A stretch of DNA of 37,039 nucleotides. Source: Desulfovibrionaceae bacterium. GTDB lineage: Bacteria > Desulfobacterota > Desulfovibrionia > Desulfovibrionales > Desulfovibrionaceae. Of the stretch, positions 12,785 to 22,843 are shown piece after piece. The first letter of the stretch is position 1. Every line of letters begins with the position of its first letter. The stretch spans positions 1 through 37,039 of the forward strand of contig JAQVCS010000019.1 in assembly GCA_028689675.1 (NCBI GenBank), written 5' to 3'. The notes beneath the pieces are model-generated. The model saw nothing but the letters and a program-made list of their open reading frames with translations, made no database searches and had not been told where the DNA came from. Position numbers and translations under genes: made by a program.

Positions 12785-12835
12785 AGGCGCGTATGTGCAT
12801 CATAGAATAATGATACACATACGCGCCTTATTTTA
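12785..12835. terminator. Convergent terminator between proC and recN
   Basis: Perfect 13-bp inverted repeat AGGCGCGTATGTG (12785-12797) and CACATACGCGCCT (12816-12828), with an additional inner ATCAT/ATGAT pairing, followed on the plus strand by TATTTTATT. It serves proC on the plus strand; recN ends at 12833 on the other strand, so it probably also stops the recN operon, though the minus-strand T run is weaker. Confidence 0.88.
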
Positions 12836-14428
12836 TTGTAATAACGATTGCGCCATGGCTTTACCCTGTGTGCCGCCGCCTGCCATGCGCTCCAGCTCTG
12901 CCATGCGCTCTGCTTTGTTTAGGGCATGGCACAGGGTAAAGGTTTCTTGTGCAATTACGCGCTTTTGCACCTGAAAATGTTTTTTGGCCTTCAGGGCAAG
13001 CTGCGGCCAATGGGTAATAAGCAGCATTTGGCGGCTGCCCGCAAGCAAAGCCAGCTTTTCTGCCACAGCGTTGAGGGTAAGCCCGCCCACGCCAGCGTCC
13101 ACTTCATCAAAGATCAGTGTGGCATCTTCTGCAATGGGCTGCACACTTGCCAAGGCCAATAAAAAGCGTGAAAGCTCGCCGCCAGAAGCAATATGATCTA
13201 AGGGCTGCGGGGCTTGCCCCGGGTTGGGTGCCCACAAAATATAGGCCTTCTCTTCCATAATATCTTGCCATGCAGGGCTGGGGCTAAAGGCAATATGCAC
13301 ATGCACATCGCTTGAAAAACCCAGCTCACACAATTCTGTTTCCAGCTTTTGCGCAAGGGCTGCCCCTGCGGCTTGCTTGCAGGGCAAAAGCTGGGCAAGC
13401 AGGCTGTGCAATTCTGCACGCAAGACCTGTTCTTTTTTATCAAATTGCTTGATATCAAGAGCACAACTATCTAAAAACGATAAGTTTTCTGCAATCTCGT
13501 CACGCAGGGCAAGAATTTCATCTAGAGAGCGGTGCATTTTTCGTTTGAGCTGTGCCAGCGCAAAGAGGCGCTCTTCCACCTCTTCAATATCAACATCCAC
13601 AGCGCGGGCAGGAGGGCGGCGCAGCCTGCCTGAAAGATGCTGCAAATTTTGCCGCAGGGCGCTTACGGCACCAGCATCTTCGGCAAGGCTTTCGTCATCG
13701 CGCTGCATGGCGCGCATAAGGTGCTCAAAATCCCCCAGTATGTGCAGCAGGCCATCGCCATTTTCCCCATGCAGCAAGAGCAGGGCTTTTTCAAAATTTT
13801 CTCGCAATTGGCTTTGCTGGCGGGCTTGGGCGCGCAGGGCTTCCAGCTTTTCTTCTTCGCCTTCTTCAGGAGCAAGGGCATCAATTTCTTGTTGCTGCAT
13901 TTCGAGCAGGTCACGCTTTTCAACAAGGTTGCGATATTTTTCTGTCAGCACCTGACGGGCAGCGGCATTTTCTTGCAAATTTTTTACAAGGGCAGCTTTT
14001 TGTGCCAGCAAATCGGGGCGGTTCATGGCCGTATTGACCAAAGCATCCTGAAAGGCCGCTTGCAAAAGCTTTTGCTGCCCATGCTGGCTGGTGTGCACCA
14101 TAAGCTCTGTGCGCAGGCCTTTGGCGGCTTCTTGAGAGCGCAAAATGTCGTTAATATACAAGCGGCTGCGCCCTGTTTCGGCAATGAGCTCTCGGCGTAT
14201 AACCAGTTCTTCGCCATGCAGCACAAAAAGGCCGCTTATTTCTGCTTTTTCTGCGCCGCTGCGCACCATTTGCGCGGGGAGTTTATCCCCCAGCAAAAAG
14301 GAAAGGGCTTTGATGATAAAGGTTTTACCCGCGCCAGTTTCGCCAGTAAGCACATTCATGCCCGCGGCAAATTCTAGTTCCATATCTTCAATAAGAGCAA
14401 GGTTATGAATGCGTAATACTTCAAGCAT
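12833..14428 (-). CDS. recN: DNA repair protein RecN
   Basis: RecN is an SMC-like ATPase that acts at double-strand breaks with RecA. The 531-residue product carries the Walker A motif GETGAGKT (29-36), a central coiled-coil region rich in E, A, L and R (about 150-360), the ABC signature SGGELSR (415-421), Walker B TLIFDEVDAG (437-446) and the switch histidine in LLITHWPQLA. This is the complete head-coil-head arrangement at normal length. The ATG at 14428 has an AGGAACAGG site and lies 43 bases after oppC. It is the last gene of a minus-strand unit that begins with the two rdgC halves. Confidence 0.97.
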   Translation of the reverse strand: MLEVLRIHNLALIEDMELEFAAGMNVLTGETGAGKTFIIKALSFLLGDKLPAQMVRSGAEKAEISGLFVLHGEELVIRRELIAETGRSRLYINDILRSQEAAKGLRTELMVHTSQHGQQKLLQAAFQDALVNTAMNRPDLLAQKAALVKNLQENAAARQVLTEKYRNLVEKRDLLEMQQQEIDALAPEEGEEEKLEALRAQARQQSQLRENFEKALLLLHGENGDGLLHILGDFEHLMRAMQRDDESLAEDAGAVSALRQNLQHLSGRLRRPPARAVDVDIEEVEERLFALAQLKRKMHRSLDEILALRDEIAENLSFLDSCALDIKQFDKKEQVLRAELHSLLAQLLPCKQAAGAALAQKLETELCELGFSSDVHVHIAFSPSPAWQDIMEEKAYILWAPNPGQAPQPLDHIASGGELSRFLLALASVQPIAEDATLIFDEVDAGVGGLTLNAVAEKLALLAGSRQMLLITHWPQLALKAKKHFQVQKRVIAQETFTLCHALNKAERMAELERMAGGGTQGKAMAQSLLQ

Positions 14429-16894: not shown

Positions 16895-17521
16895 TCAGTC
16901 GCGCTCCGTAGCAAAGGTAGTGGGTTCAAGGGCATCCAGCGCAGGGGCTGCGGCTTCGGGCAGCAGAGAAAGGGCAAGCGTGTAGGGCGTCATAGGCTCA
17001 ATATGCAGATCAAAAGTGCGAATAAAATATTCGGTAAAGAGCTCAACAACCTTGCTTTGCGTGGAAGCGAACCAAATTTCGCCAGTATCTGTTGCCCACA
17101 CCACATTAAATTCTGCGGGTACAGGCAAAAAGCGCATGCGTAATTTTAGCAAAACTTGTTCTTTCAGTTCTTTTTTACGCTCGCGGCTGACAAATTTCTT
17201 ACCTTGTTCAGCCATTTTGGCTTTTTCGTCTTTCAGCGCAAGGGCAAGGTGTTTTTTTATTACCCCAGCAGGCACACGGCGCGTATCAAGGCGCAGTGAA
17301 AAGACAATATATGCACCTTTTTCTGGCGGTGCGCTCAGCCATTCCATATCAAGCATATCTTCAAAGCTCGTCCAGCCCAAAGCACGCTCTTCGGGAAGAT
17401 CGTCAATATCACGAAAAGCAAATTGCTTTAGCTTTTCAGGAACTTGCCCCCAAAGCTCGGCAGGAACAGCGTCCACCAGACGAAAACGGGTGAACGAACA
17501 GGAAGAATTAAAAAAGCCCAT
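16895..17521 (-). CDS. rdgC: RdgC-like recombination-associated protein, N-terminal half
   Basis: RdgC forms a ring around duplex DNA and restrains RecA activity. The 208-residue product starts MGFFNSSCSFTRFRLVD and has the family segments LGWTSFEDML, DTRRVPAGVIKKHL, a basic helix SRERKKELKEQVLLKLR, and VVWATDTGEIWFAS, comparable in order to E. coli RdgC (GWVPP, PSPVIKQAL, KDSLKDEVL, IDTVNGLIMV). The protein is about two thirds of the E. coli length and stops where the C-terminal half begins in the next gene. The ATG at 17521 has a clear AAGGAG; an upstream start at 17545 lacks one. It heads the operon rdgC-N, rdgC-C, oppB, oppC, recN. Confidence 0.75.
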   Translation of the reverse strand: MGFFNSSCSFTRFRLVDAVPAELWGQVPEKLKQFAFRDIDDLPEERALGWTSFEDMLDMEWLSAPPEKGAYIVFSLRLDTRRVPAGVIKKHLALALKDEKAKMAEQGKKFVSRERKKELKEQVLLKLRMRFLPVPAEFNVVWATDTGEIWFASTQSKVVELFTEYFIRTFDLHIEPMTPYTLALSLLPEAAAPALDALEPTTFATERD

Positions 17522-17935
17522 AAAAACTCCTTGGCACGGTAACAAAGCAAGCCCTGCGGTAAAAAGAACACAGGGAATTGGGTCACCTTTCTTTACGCTG
17601 TGCCTGCCTTCATGGCAAGTGCTTGTATGCCTTGTGGGGATGAGCCTTTGTGTTATGATGATGTGAAATGAGGGATGGATAAGGCGTTTTGAAGGCGTAT
17701 TAAAAATACGCGCATAATGTTAATTATGTAAACTTTTATTTTGTTAATTTTGCCTTTTGCTGAGTATCAAACACAGAGCAAGCCTAAGCCTTAACATAAG
17801 CCACTCTCCACCAATGCTGCTGTAGCAATACAAAATCAGCCCTGTAGAAAGCGACTTCCCAAGCACAGGCTTTTGTCGTAGCGTATAGGCCTTGTCACAC
17901 GGTATTTTAACAGCATCCAAAGCATATCAATCCTT
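17522..17935. other. Divergent intergenic region between rdgC and sbcDC
   Basis: About 410 bases with no supported gene. It holds the promoters of two divergent repair transcripts. The only clear structure is a candidate promoter with a palindromic spacer at 17689-17718. The sbcDC start at 17936 has no recognisable ribosome binding site. No E. coli-type LexA box (CTGT-N8-ACAG) was found by eye. Confidence 0.5.
17689..17718 (+). promoter_or_regulatory. Candidate promoter with palindromic spacer
   Basis: A -35-like TTGAAG (17689-17694) and -10-like CATAAT (17713-17718) are 18 bases apart. The spacer is filled by the perfect palindrome GCGTATT-AAA-AATACGC (17695-17711), an arrangement typical for repressor-controlled promoters. 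It would give a leader of about 210 bases before sbcDC, so the assignment is uncertain. Confidence 0.35.
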
Positions 17936-20900
17936 ATGAAAATTCTGCACACATCAGACTGGCATTTGGGGCGCAGCTTGTACACCAAAACGCGCTATGC
18001 CGAGCACGAAGCCTTTTTAGATTGGCTGGCACAGTGCATTGAACAAGAGCATATTGACGCCCTGCTGGTGGCTGGAGATATTTTTGACAGCAGCACACCC
18101 AGTGCCAAGGCACAGGAGCTCTATTTTTCTTTTTTAGCGCGTGTGGCAAAACTGCCTTGCTGTCGGAATATTATCATCACAGGCGGCAATCATGATTCGC
18201 CAGCTTTATTGCAGGCCGCGCGTGCCCCCTTGCAGGCCTTGCGCATTCATGTTGTTGCCTCAGCCCCAGCAGACCCAAAACACTGCGTGCTCCCCCTAAG
18301 CGATGCACAGGGCTGCCCTGCCCTGCTACTGTGCCCTGTGCCTTTTTTGCGCGATAAAGATGTGCGTCAAGTCAGCGCTGGGGAATCGCTTGAAGAAAAA
18401 AGTGCTAAACTGGTGCAGGGGGTGGCGGCATATTATCAGACTGTGTGCAAACAGGCCGAAAGTATACGCGGCACGCAAGACATCCCGCTTGTGGTTATGG
18501 GGCATTGCTTTACGGCTGGGGGGCGTATTTCTGAAGGCGATGGCGTGCGCGAGCTCTATGTAGGCTCACTGGCACATATTCCTGCTGAAGCCTTTTCGCC
18601 TGCTATTGATTATCTTGCCCTAGGGCATTTACATGCGCCCCAGCTTGTGGCCAACAAAGCACATTGGCGCTATAGTGGTGCGCCCCTGCCCATGAGCTTT
18701 AGCGAGGCCGAGCAGGAAAAAAGCGTGTGCATTATTGAATTTTCAGGGCGGCATGCCCATGTTCAGCCTATGCCCATCCCCTGCTGGCAAGCCTTGCACA
18801 GCCTGAAAGGCGATAAAGAAAGCCTTTGCCGCGCTTTGCAAGCCCTGCGCATGCAAGGGCAGCCCTGCTGGCTTGAAATAGAGCACACGGGGGATACCCT
18901 TGCCGCGAACCTTCATGAAGAACTTGAAGCTTTGGTGCAGGGCAGCCCGCTTGAAATTGTGCGCATTAAAGAGCGTAGCCTTAGTGCCCGCACCATGGCG
19001 CTGAATACAGCCGAATCGCTGGAAGACCTCAGCGTGCAAGAAGTGTTCACGCGCTGCCTCAACAGTGAGCATGTCCCCGATGCAGAGCGCCCTGCCCTGA
19101 TGCACTGCTTTGCTGAAATTGCCCATGCTGTGGGCACAGAACCAAGCCCAGCCACGGGGGCTGGCTGCCTTGCCGCCCTACACAGTGTGCGCTTTGCCAA
19201 CCTGAATTCGCTTATGGGCGAATGGAGCATAGATTTTTGTCATGAAGCCTACCGCACAGATGGCATTTTTGCCATCACAGGCGCAACAGGCGCGGGCAAA
19301 AGCACTTTGCTGGATGCAATTTGCCTTGCCTTATATGGCATGACACCGCGCTTGGGCAAAATTACCGCCTCGGCCAATGCTATTATGTCACGGCAGGCAT
19401 CTTTTTGCTTTGCCGAAGTCACCTTTGCCACCACCACAGGCCTGTACCGTGCCCATTTCAGCCAAAAAAGAAAAACACGCGGCAAAAATAAAGAAGGCCT
19501 GCAAGAGCCTAAATATGAAATAAGCCAGCTGCCAGAAGGTACAGTGCTTGCCTCAAAAGCCCGCGAGGCAGCAACGCTTATAGAAAATATTACGGGCATG
19601 AATTTTGACCGCTTCAGCCGTGCAATTTTGCTTGCTCAAGGAGATTTTGCGGCCTTTTTGCGCGCTAATGCCGATACCCGTGCCCCCTTGCTGGAACAAA
19701 TTACCCAAACCGAAATATATAGCCAAATATCTAAAGCAGTACATGAACGTTTCAGCAAGGAAAAAGAAGCTCTTATTCCCCTTGAGGCACAAAAAAAGGC
19801 ACTACAGCTTGCCACAGAAGCCGAACAAAAAGAACAGCAGCAAGCCTTGCAGAGGCACCGTGCTGCCCTAACAGCATTGCAGCACTGTACCCAACAAGTA
19901 GACGCTGCCCTAGCTTGGCAGCGCAGCCTGTGCAGCCTGCAAGAGCAGCAAAGCCTCTTGAACAGCGCCTCGGCAAAGAATCATGCAGCTCTATTGGATT
20001 TTCAGCCAGAGCAAGCACGCCTCGACGCAGCCCAGCGGGCAGAAAGCATAGCCCCGATTTATAGCGAGGCTGTACGCCTGCGCCAACAATGCCAGCAGCT
20101 GGAAGAGGAAAAAACAAGGCTTACGGCAGCACTGTGCAGCAAGGCAGCGCAGAAAGAAGCACAAGAGCGCCTTGCCGCACAGGCTCTGACCCAGCAAGAA
20201 CAGGCAGAAGCGCAATGGCAGGCGCAAGCCCCTCTGTTTTTGCAAGTGCGCACCTTGGACGCCCGCCTTCAAGATAAAGCTCAAGTGCTGCTCACAAGCC
20301 AGCAGCGTATGCAGGAAGGTGCCGCCCTTTTGGCCGAAAGGCAGCAAGCCTTGCTGCATAACCAAAGCCTGTTACTCGAAGCGGGCAAAGCACAGCACGC
20401 TGCCAGTATTGCCCTGCATGCCCACCATGCCGATGCCCCTTTGGTTGAGGAATATTCGGGTTTGGCGGCACAGCTTTCGGCTTTGGCTGCTGCCTTTCTT
20501 CAGAAAAAAACAGTGCGGCAAGAACAAGAAGCAGCACAGGCTGCCGTGCAGCAAGCGCAAGAAGCTCTTGCCCTGCTTCAGGAAAGCCTTGCTCAGCAAA
20601 AACAGAGCTGCGCCGCGCAAGAGCAACAAAGCAGCACGCTGGAGCGGCGCTATAGCGTGTTGCTAGCGGGCAAAAGCCCCGCCCAGTGGCGGGAAGCCTT
20701 GCTTGCCCTAAGCCAAAAGCACACACAGCTTACCACGGCGGCACAGCACCTTCAGGCATTGCATGCCCTGCAACAAGAGCAGCACAACCTAACATCAGCG
20801 CACGAAAAGACCATTGCGGCATTACAGCTGCACGAGCACAGCACCGCCAGCGCCCGCAGCGAGCATGTCCGATGCACAGCGGCTTTTGATCATGCTGTGC

Positions 20901-22843
20901 AGCTCTTGCACCTTGTTAAAAAAATTCAAAGTCTTGAGGAAGAACGCGCCGCGCTTCAGCATGGGCAGCCCTGCCCTTTGTGCGGGGCAAGGCAGCACCC
21001 TTATTGCGAACAGGCCACCCTGCCCCCTGTTTCTGAAAACGAGGTGGAGCGTTGCCGTACCCTTATGGATGCTGCCGCTCAAACCCTGCTGGAACAAGAG
21101 CAAAGCCTACATAGCCTGCGCACACAGTTGTCGAACATACACAGTGAGCAGGAAAAACTGGCCAAGGAAGAAGCCCTGCACACACAAGCCCTTGCCGAAC
21201 TTGTGCCAAGCGCTGCTAAAGACGCAAAGCACAGCATGGCTGAGCACCTTAGCCACTGCCAGCAGGCAACAGCGCTGGAATATCAGCATTGCCTGCATAC
21301 CATGACTGCAATTGACACGCAGGGGCAGGCTTTAGAGGAACACAAGCAGCGCTACCAGCAAGCACATACAGCACTGCTGCACGCGCAGGCCGCTGAAGAA
21401 CGCACAGCCAATGCCTTGCAACAGGCACAGCAGCAAGAGCAGGAAAAAAGCACAGCGCTGCACACCATACGGGCGCATTACGCGGAAAAATGCGCCGCCC
21501 TGCTGCTTAACCTGCGCCCCTATGGCATAAGCGCACTGGAGGCCGAGGCTATCCCCGAGCTTCAGGAAAGCCTGCGGCAGCGCAAAGAACAGTACAGCCT
21601 TTTACAGCAGGCCGTGCAGCAGGCCACACAGGAGCATGAGGAGTGCAACAATGCGCTCCTTGTTGTGCAACAAAGCCTGCAACAGGCTGAAAAAGAAGCA
21701 AAAATAGCACAAGAGCACTATATTGCTGTGCTGCATGAACATACTGCTCTGCATACAGAGCGCCAAAACCTTTTTGGGGAAAAGAATGTCGACGCAGCAG
21801 AGCGCAGCCTGCGCCAGCACATAGAGCAGGCCAAAGCCAACTATGCTGCGGCACTTCAGGCTGCGTCTATGGCTGCCCAAGCATGGAGCAGCACAGCGGC
21901 CTTGCTGGAACAGGCAGAGCGCACAGGCATACAGGCGAGGAAAACCTGCCGCGAGGCAGAAGAGGCGCTTATGCTTGCCCTTGACCAAGCATATTTTGCT
22001 GACGAAGCAACATATTGTGCTGCCTGCCTTAGCCCACAAGAAAAACAAGCTCTGTGTGCCCGCCGTGACGCCCTGCACACCGAAAAACAAAGCCTGCACT
22101 TGCAGCTGCATGAAGCAGAGCACAAGCTCAGCAATCATAAGGCGCAAGAACACAGCATGGCTCAGCCCGAAGAACTGCAAGCCTTACTTGAAGAATTGCA
22201 GGCGCTCATACAGTACAATCATGAGCATGTGGGGGCTTTGCAGCACAGCATTGCCCAGCAAGAAAAGCAGCAGCAAATAAGTAAAGACCTTGCTGCAGCC
22301 ATTGCAGCGCAGCAGCGCGAACTTGCCCTATGGGCATACATGCACAAACTTATTGGCTCAGCAGACGGAAAAAAGTTCCGCAACTTTGCGCAGGAACTTA
22401 CCTTCGAGCATGTTGTCGCCTTGGCCAATGGGCAGCTGCAAGCTATGACAGACCGCTATATTTTGCTGCGCGACCCTGCCCTTCCCCTTGAGCTGCATGT
22501 GCTTGATACTTGGCAAGGAGGGTTAAGCCGCACCACCAAAAACCTTTCTGGCGGCGAAAGTTTTTTGGTCAGCCTTGCCCTTGCGCTGGCTTTATCCCGC
22601 ATGGTGAGCAAGCATGCGCGCGTGGAATCACTCTTTTTAGACGAAGGTTTTGGCACATTGGACGAAGAAACACTGAATACAGCTTTAGAAGCCCTTGCCA
22701 ACCTGCAAAAAACAGGGCGACTTATTGGCATTATTTCACACATTCCTGCCTTGCGCGAACGCATAGCCACGCAAATTTGGGTAAAAAAAGAAAGTGGGGG
22801 CAAAAGCTCATTGCATGGGGCTGGCTGCTCGTCAGGCGGCTGA
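17936..22843 (+). CDS. sbcDC: SbcD-SbcC fusion: Mre11-type nuclease joined to Rad50-type ATPase
   Basis: Normally SbcD and SbcC are two proteins that form a complex which opens hairpins and processes DNA ends. Here they are one 1635-residue chain. Residues 1-400 are a full SbcD: TSDWHLGR (6-13, metal ligands Asp8, His10), AGDIFD (46-51), GGNHD (83-87), MGH (188-190) and GHLH (230-233). After a short linker (about 400-414) comes SbcC: FANLNSLMGEWSIDF, Walker A GATGAGKST (449-457), long coiled coils rich in Q, A, L and E, the zinc hook CPLCG (Cys1013, Cys1016), signature LSGGES (1537-1542) and Walker B LFLDEGFGTLDEE (1566-1578). The whole frame is open with no internal ribosome binding site at the junction. 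The start MKILHTSDWH is canonical though no ribosome binding site is seen. It is divergent from the rdgC operon. Confidence 0.95.
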   Translation: MKILHTSDWHLGRSLYTKTRYAEHEAFLDWLAQCIEQEHIDALLVAGDIFDSSTPSAKAQELYFSFLARVAKLPCCRNIIITGGNHDSPALLQAARAPLQALRIHVVASAPADPKHCVLPLSDAQGCPALLLCPVPFLRDKDVRQVSAGESLEEKSAKLVQGVAAYYQTVCKQAESIRGTQDIPLVVMGHCFTAGGRISEGDGVRELYVGSLAHIPAEAFSPAIDYLALGHLHAPQLVANKAHWRYSGAPLPMSFSEAEQEKSVCIIEFSGRHAHVQPMPIPCWQALHSLKGDKESLCRALQALRMQGQPCWLEIEHTGDTLAANLHEELEALVQGSPLEIVRIKERSLSARTMALNTAESLEDLSVQEVFTRCLNSEHVPDAERPALMHCFAEIAHAVGTEPSPATGAGCLAALHSVRFANLNSLMGEWSIDFCHEAYRTDGIFAITGATGAGKSTLLDAICLALYGMTPRLGKITASANAIMSRQASFCFAEVTFATTTGLYRAHFSQKRKTRGKNKEGLQEPKYEISQLPEGTVLASKAREAATLIENITGMNFDRFSRAILLAQGDFAAFLRANADTRAPLLEQITQTEIYSQISKAVHERFSKEKEALIPLEAQKKALQLATEAEQKEQQQALQRHRAALTALQHCTQQVDAALAWQRSLCSLQEQQSLLNSASAKNHAALLDFQPEQARLDAAQRAESIAPIYSEAVRLRQQCQQLEEEKTRLTAALCSKAAQKEAQERLAAQALTQQEQAEAQWQAQAPLFLQVRTLDARLQDKAQVLLTSQQRMQEGAALLAERQQALLHNQSLLLEAGKAQHAASIALHAHHADAPLVEEYSGLAAQLSALAAAFLQKKTVRQEQEAAQAAVQQAQEALALLQESLAQQKQSCAAQEQQSSTLERRYSVLLAGKSPAQWREALLALSQKHTQLTTAAQHLQALHALQQEQHNLTSAHEKTIAALQLHEHSTASARSEHVRCTAAFDHAVQLLHLVKKIQSLEEERAALQHGQPCPLCGARQHPYCEQATLPPVSENEVERCRTLMDAAAQTLLEQEQSLHSLRTQLSNIHSEQEKLAKEEALHTQALAELVPSAAKDAKHSMAEHLSHCQQATALEYQHCLHTMTAIDTQGQALEEHKQRYQQAHTALLHAQAAEERTANALQQAQQQEQEKSTALHTIRAHYAEKCAALLLNLRPYGISALEAEAIPELQESLRQRKEQYSLLQQAVQQATQEHEECNNALLVVQQSLQQAEKEAKIAQEHYIAVLHEHTALHTERQNLFGEKNVDAAERSLRQHIEQAKANYAAALQAASMAAQAWSSTAALLEQAERTGIQARKTCREAEEALMLALDQAYFADEATYCAACLSPQEKQALCARRDALHTEKQSLHLQLHEAEHKLSNHKAQEHSMAQPEELQALLEELQALIQYNHEHVGALQHSIAQQEKQQQISKDLAAAIAAQQRELALWAYMHKLIGSADGKKFRNFAQELTFEHVVALANGQLQAMTDRYILLRDPALPLELHVLDTWQGGLSRTTKNLSGGESFLVSLALALALSRMVSKHARVESLFLDEGFGTLDEETLNTALEALANLQKTGRLIGIISHIPALRERIATQIWVKKESGGKSSLHGAGCSSGG

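Follow-up and report, generated by a model that had tools for sequence, protein, structure and literature searches.

SbcCD is a widespread nuclease involved in the repair of DNA breaks, and its two subunits are usually encoded by two adjoining genes. In the window (the whole stretch of DNA analysed here, 37,039 nucleotides long), counterparts of both subunits are found in a single gene. The open reading frame at 17936-22843 of the forward strand is unbroken from its ATG to its stop over 1635 codons, and encodes one protein of 1635 amino acids, just as the initial annotation had read it. The features of the locus are given below, the motifs (Walker A, signature, Walker B and others) under their usual names.

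17936..22843, forward strand: sbcDC fusion gene, an open frame matched by the SbcD and SbcC models, with the joined form also present in the proteins P0002 and P0003
17936..19132, forward strand: SbcD part, residues 1-399, with the nuclease, the capping domain and the Rad50-binding helices (about 360-399)
19133..19183, forward strand: linker, residues 400-416 (17 residues), without a possible start codon at 400-417
19163..19169, forward strand: GGCTGCC within the linker (codons 410-412), a possible relic of the spacer before an old sbcC start
19184..22840, forward strand: SbcC part, residues 417-1635, with the ATPase lobes, the coiled coils and the hook, matched by AAA_23, SbcC_Walker_B, NF007600 and TIGR00618
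19280..19306, forward strand: Walker A GATGAGKST (449-457), invariant in P0002 and P0003
20972..20983, forward strand: zinc hook CPLC (Cys1013, Cys1016), invariant in P0002 and P0003
22544..22663, forward strand: signature LSGGE (1537) to Walker B LFLDEGFGTLD (1566-1576), from Pfam and the motif positions
16895..17545, reverse strand: short RdgC-like protein of 216 codons (PF04381, 31.3 bits against a cut-off of 25, profile positions 20-159 of 298)

Pfam places Metallophos and SbcD_C within the first 377 residues, AAA_23 (PF13476) at 419-634 and SbcC_Walker_B (PF13558) at 1524-1588, the latter two above their cut-offs. Among the NCBIfam models, the best matches are the SbcD and SbcC models of the E. 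coli type. Residues 1-378 score 193.1 bits against TIGR00619 (SbcD), above its curated cut-off of 77.65, and 367 bits against the narrower SbcD model NF008206, under its cut-off of 450. From residue 417 onwards, the scores against the SbcC models NF007600 (503.5 bits, cut-off 750) and TIGR00618 (332 bits, cut-off 478.5) also stay under the cut-offs, as do those of P0003. The TIGR00618 cut-off is attained by just one of 14 control genomes, although all 14 match the model.

The initial annotation had also described a complete nuclease with its metal-binding motifs, followed by a zinc hook, and both were located. The five metal motifs of SbcD are DWHL at residue 8, GDIFD at 47, GNHD at 84, GHCF at 189 and GHLH at 230, while the hook CPLCG, a CxxC in the middle of the coil, occupies residues 1013-1017. 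When the protein was compared with the PDB by phmmer, E. coli SbcD 1-397 aligned to residues 1-402, and E. coli SbcC to 416-893 and 1329-1624 (its residue 4 falling on 416 and its residue 1039 on 1624), the intervening coil aligning poorly. By this nearly end-to-end alignment with the two E. coli chains, the join cost no domain. E. coli SbcCD (PDB 6s6v, 6s85, 7yzo, 7yzp) provides the best sequence and fold matches, and has full-length domains, motifs and the zinc hook in common with the fusion; it differs in being two polypeptides rather than one, and the SbcD model is 33-38% identical to its chains. By its sequence, the 1635-residue fusion is a full-length SbcD-linker-SbcC protein of the E. 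coli type, and it likely acts as a single-chain SbcCD; to this reading as a whole we assign a probability of about 0.8.

Around the join, in-frame ATG, GTG or TTG codons are present at 370, 389, 399, 418 and 427, and the scan for such codons found no SbcC start at codons 400-417. A search of 5.8 billion proteins recovered the same joined form in two further clusters, P0002 (1634 amino acids, 94% identical to the fusion) and P0003 (1640 amino acids, 62% identical). The linker has an identical length in all three, and 11 of the 16 residues at 401-416 are kept in P0003. Elsewhere, the fusion and P0003 are 82-83% identical in the nuclease and in both ATPase lobes, 69% in the hook, 56% in the capping domain, 54% in the Rad50-binding helices and 39-49% in the coils. 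With its single frame, the missing start and two more fused clusters, the natural SbcD-SbcC fusion proposed at the outset is upheld.

The same search gave 3261 matches, of which the best 120 were considered; scoring was confined to the 7997 candidates with the most words in common, and a distant fusion may thereby have escaped. Apart from P0002 and P0003, the remaining 118 of the best 120 score at most 649 bits, and 117 of them show no phosphoesterase domain. The one other protein among these 120 to carry this domain together with the ATPase is the shortened P0102 (1307 amino acids) of E. coli O25b:H4-ST131. Like the fusion, it has SbcD and SbcC in one frame; unlike the fusion, its SbcD breaks off after residue 272 (1-272), SbcC following from model position 8, so that the C-terminal part of SbcD is absent. 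It is known from one member sequence and represents either a deletion or an assembly fault.

The genome (2.36 Mb in 26 contigs) is 99.49% complete. The SbcD model finds in it the fusion above the cut-off and one 22-bit match below it; both matches of the SbcC model lie inside the fusion gene; and the fusion protein, used as a query, returns one place, which is the fusion itself. It is, thus, the only SbcD and the only SbcC found in this genome, and presumably performs the SbcCD work of the cell. Besides the fusion, AAA_23 matches the RecN-like neighbour (12833-14428), one protein just above the cut-off and five below it; two of these six weaker matches were read, and appear by eye to be ABC transporters and UvrA. 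The RecN neighbour shares 61-62% identity with proteins assigned to a Desulfovibrionaceae bacterium and to Desulfovibrio piger, which makes a host from the Desulfovibrio family likely.

The RdgC-like gene is the divergent upstream neighbour of the fusion and the sole RdgC match in the genome. Among the 14 control genomes, RdgC is present in E. coli only, and no RdgC-like gene was seen beside SbcD in the other loci, most of which have less than 1 kb of flank. This neighbour is not shown to belong with the fusion. Transport genes, a rhodanese-like gene and a uracil phosphoribosyltransferase make up the further surroundings. No mobile-element family was met among 20 scanned neighbours, the tRNA scan and Rfam (at the gathering threshold) gave no match around the fusion, the phage search of the upstream region and the plasmid megablast returned no match, and the promoter and terminator scan showed no clear promoter for the fusion gene. 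By its gene content, the contig is chromosome-like.

The spread of the fusion over related genomes, which the initial annotation had suggested checking, is narrow. In the class, an SbcD above the cut-off is present in 73 of 348 genomes and is fused in one of the 73, that of the window, where the SbcD frame measures 1653 codons from stop to stop; the other above-cut-off matches listed lie in frames of 91-767 codons. The E. coli type of SbcCD is patchy in the family, with 78 of 288 genomes matching the fusion protein at E 0.001. Besides the genome itself, 77 were thus matched, and the DNA of 64 was read, the 13 omitted being weak or partial matches. The phylum search (395 genomes) matched at least 114 genomes besides that of the window, 40 of which were read. 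Together with one locus from the order (G042) and a second contig of one genome (G178), these 64 and 40 loci make 106, to which the window is added. This census comprises one fused locus, 91 adjacent split pairs, nine pairs more than 100 nt apart and six loci with one half missing; in other words, 91 of the 92 adjacent pairs are split, and the window is the one that is fused. A scan of contigs for further loci returned three, all of them split pairs.

Several long open frames were suspected to be fusions as well and were rejected. For G123 (1583 aa), G169 (1810 aa), G155 (1680 aa) and G157 (1221 aa), the DNA has stops between the genes, and in G462 (1748 aa) SbcC begins at its own Met, the part preceding it overlapping, by eye, a gene of the opposite strand.

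The split pairs of the family and the phylum (for example, in G002, G353 and G545) have the same gene order as the fusion, and many of their junctions are of similar length. The genes were initially said to be usually overlapping in other bacteria; this did not hold here, as only 31 of the 91 adjacent split pairs overlap. The genes of the other 60 are separated, out of frame in 42 pairs and in frame in 18. These 18 in-frame pairs (L071, L072, L073, L078, L080 and L141-L153) have their genes 3-30 nt apart and come from several families of the phylum. All but two, L151 and L152, which have more, are parted by a single stop, and at these 16 junctions, as the sequence stands, read-through would yield a fusion. 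Among the matches listed for the phylum, five other genomes have a full-length match to residues 1-1632, each with exactly one internal stop, and one genome of the family matches residues 2-1634 with one stop. Unlike the fusion, all 91 adjacent split pairs have both a stop codon and a putative start for sbcC. At L099 and L104, sbcD and sbcC also share a frame, but are 168 and 321 nt apart.

It had been expected that relatives with two genes each would speak against the fusion. Every other pair read is indeed split; nevertheless, on the sequences compared, this shows that the fusion is a derived state and not a false one.

Measured over 98 pairs, the split SbcD extends beyond the position of residue 399 by a median of 8 residues (range 0-82), while the start of the split SbcC precedes the position of 417 by a median of 4 (range 4-22). 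The distance from codon 399 to codon 422, which is 66 nt in the fusion, falls at 60-72 nt in 41 of the 98 pairs, with 65 nt as the commonest value, and 65 nt is also the median for the 77 out-of-frame pairs. Among the 21 in-frame pairs, L148 and L149 have exactly 22 codons (66 nt), one of them a stop, and another five pairs have 21 (63 nt). Many other split junctions are shorter (44-59 nt) or far longer, the whole range being 26-1561 nt. By these distances, the linker is as long as it should be if a former stop, together with the bases once lying between the genes, has come to be translated.

A weak hint of the same kind, suggestive only, is given by GGCTGCC in the linker as a relic of the spacer before sbcC. 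Its offset equals that of the GGCTGCC before sbcC in L149. The 7-mer is found four times in the 4908-nt frame; RGCTGY stands in the 25 nt preceding the sbcC start in 8 of 100 split pairs, hardly more often than in 25-nt stretches drawn at random from the fusion frame (5.5%), and all of those eight copies lie 7-9 nt before the start.

The similar junction lengths and the 18 in-frame pairs, 16 with a single stop, make it likely that the fusion arose by the loss of one stop. The gene would have formed in place from an in-frame sbcD-sbcC pair when its single stop codon was lost, after which the sbcC start would have decayed. The parentage was approached with a concatenated tree of SbcD and the SbcC heads (86 rows, none of them a non-canonical fusion). 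From this tree L027, L030, L118, L128 and L141 were left out where present, along with rows having an SbcD of less than 300 residues or an SbcC not in one frame; the first two trees had contained several long rows, which made the placement doubtful. The fusion, P0002 and P0003 group together as a fully supported clade, whose stem is long (0.91 changes per column), and owing to this stem the parent, and hence the stop-loss route, is not proven.

The canonical fusion may, alternatively, have been acquired by transfer from another lineage instead of being formed within the genus, which we regard as a tenable though somewhat doubtful account. It agrees with the free tree, in which the trio is not grouped with the same-genus genome G002, and with the surroundings, since the 12 genes around the fusion that were compared are all without a counterpart next to the pair in G002 (the one weak match is of RecN to SbcC). 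The junction of G002 itself is a 4-nt overlap, out of frame. Against transfer, a tree constrained to unite the trio with G002 passes the AU test (p 0.269), and constraining it with a 13-row clade that includes G002 and L149 raises the likelihood by 8.7 units above the free tree (p 0.631), this clade having been picked after the tree and the junctions had been seen. As neither constraint is rejected, formation in place, in the genus or close to it, is allowed and not shown.

Fusions of Mre11 and Rad50 (SbcDC) as such have been described since 2011, when Yoshida, Claverie and Ogata presented thirteen cases (PMC3175470). Among their hosts are Mimivirus (R555), Clostridium kluyveri plasmids, Anaerostipes, Ruminococcus, a Deferribacter megaplasmid, a Bacillus phage and several eukaryotes, and an origin from a mobile pool was proposed. 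The cellular hosts other than Deferribacter also keep a split set. The window could hold one more of these non-canonical fusions of viruses, plasmids and some bacteria. They do resemble it in being single chains in which a short linker leads from the nuclease, in front, to the ATPase, and the long stem of the trio would suit such an origin. Yet the 2011 fusions fall outside the canonical clades, whereas the protein of the window scores 367 and 503 bits against models of the E. coli type. The plasmid case of Deferribacter, the one among them that was compared, has no SbcC or SbcD match in NCBIfam, only weak Rad50 and SMC matches, and its BLASTP comparison with the window is not significant (E 0.37). 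By tblastn, none of 161 matching plasmid records and none of 30 matching phage records cover 80% of the protein, which counts weakly, as split pairs of the E. coli type themselves cover only about 47%. A non-canonical origin is, thus, very unlikely.

An error of sequencing or assembly that removed a stop or shifted the frame between two genes would be thinkable in a draft genome of 26 contigs, all the more when every other pair read in the relatives is split. The loss of a stop alone would, however, have left the sbcC start behind, and none exists at codons 400-417; two separate clusters, one of them only 62% identical, have the same join and the same linker length; and the gene sits in the middle of a 37-kb contig. 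The missing start and the two clusters make such a slip improbable in the extreme. It is also conceivable that the translated chain is cleaved and that the two subunits then work separately in the ordinary way. The linker is predicted, with low confidence (residues 401-430), to be without structure; its conservation in P0003, at 11 of 16 residues, speaks, indirectly, against cutting, which we consider improbable.

The single-chain reading was further examined on predicted structures. A joint alignment of SbcD and SbcC for a 700-residue fragment (A2) had SbcC rows of 12-17% identity with misplaced columns and was dropped, the alignments A3 and A4 being used in its place. The folded fragment retains the SbcD fold, with a Foldseek match to E. 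coli SbcD (7yzo_A) at E 4.7e-40; the E. coli structures that it matches show SbcD in four states (endonuclease, resting, cutting and hairpin-bound). Predicted helices at 367-377 and 385-399 correspond to the Rad50-binding pair, and both models let the last helix run as far as 399. For SbcC, pLDDT is below 50 over nearly all of 398-625 in one model, and the lobe is resolved poorly in both.

The linker connects the end of the Rad50-binding helices in SbcD with the beginning of the ATPase lobe in SbcC. For the fusions of 2011, an argument of this kind from the T. maritima structure gave about 28 A, or nine to twelve residues (PMC3175470). A review describes the Rad50-binding helices as remaining on the base of the Rad50 coiled coil in the closed and the cutting states (PMC7260605). 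Since the helix pair is a fixed contact between the subunits in known structures, a tether at its end would probably leave the swing of the nuclease dimer unhindered. As these helices are kept, two chains are likely to pair into the usual M2R2 nuclease-ATPase, which is predicted to cut blocked DNA ends and hairpins. The initial annotation had raised the possibility that the tether changes the assembly; the anatomy lends this no support, and a normal M2R2 is the simpler prediction. Its other proposal, a forced 1:1 ratio of SbcD to SbcC, would follow from the single frame if the chain stays uncut.

What is new is a canonical fusion that is the sole copy found in its genome, lies on a chromosome-like contig and is present in at least two diverged lineages. 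It differs from the earlier cases of 2011, which are non-canonical and, in cells other than Deferribacter, stand beside a split set. Among the papers listed by a literature search over open-licence papers, there was no report of a canonical SbcD-SbcC fusion. A wider proposal, to which we would give even odds, is that a canonical housekeeping SbcCD became an obligate single-chain enzyme by the loss of one stop between in-frame genes and was kept over at least two lineages (62% identity), so that the bacterial Mre11-Rad50 cycle would need no exchange of free nuclease and no varying ratio of the two subunits.

The Mre11-Rad50 field is concerned with the movement of the nuclease with respect to the ATPase heads and with the assembly of the subunits. 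If the fusion works as predicted, it would exclude, for its host, the models that call for unattached SbcD or for an excess of SbcD over SbcC. The fusion would, in addition, offer a ready-made natural 1:1 construct for structural studies, and the split relatives, in which a single stop lies between in-frame genes, point to a short path by which a fusion may be reached.
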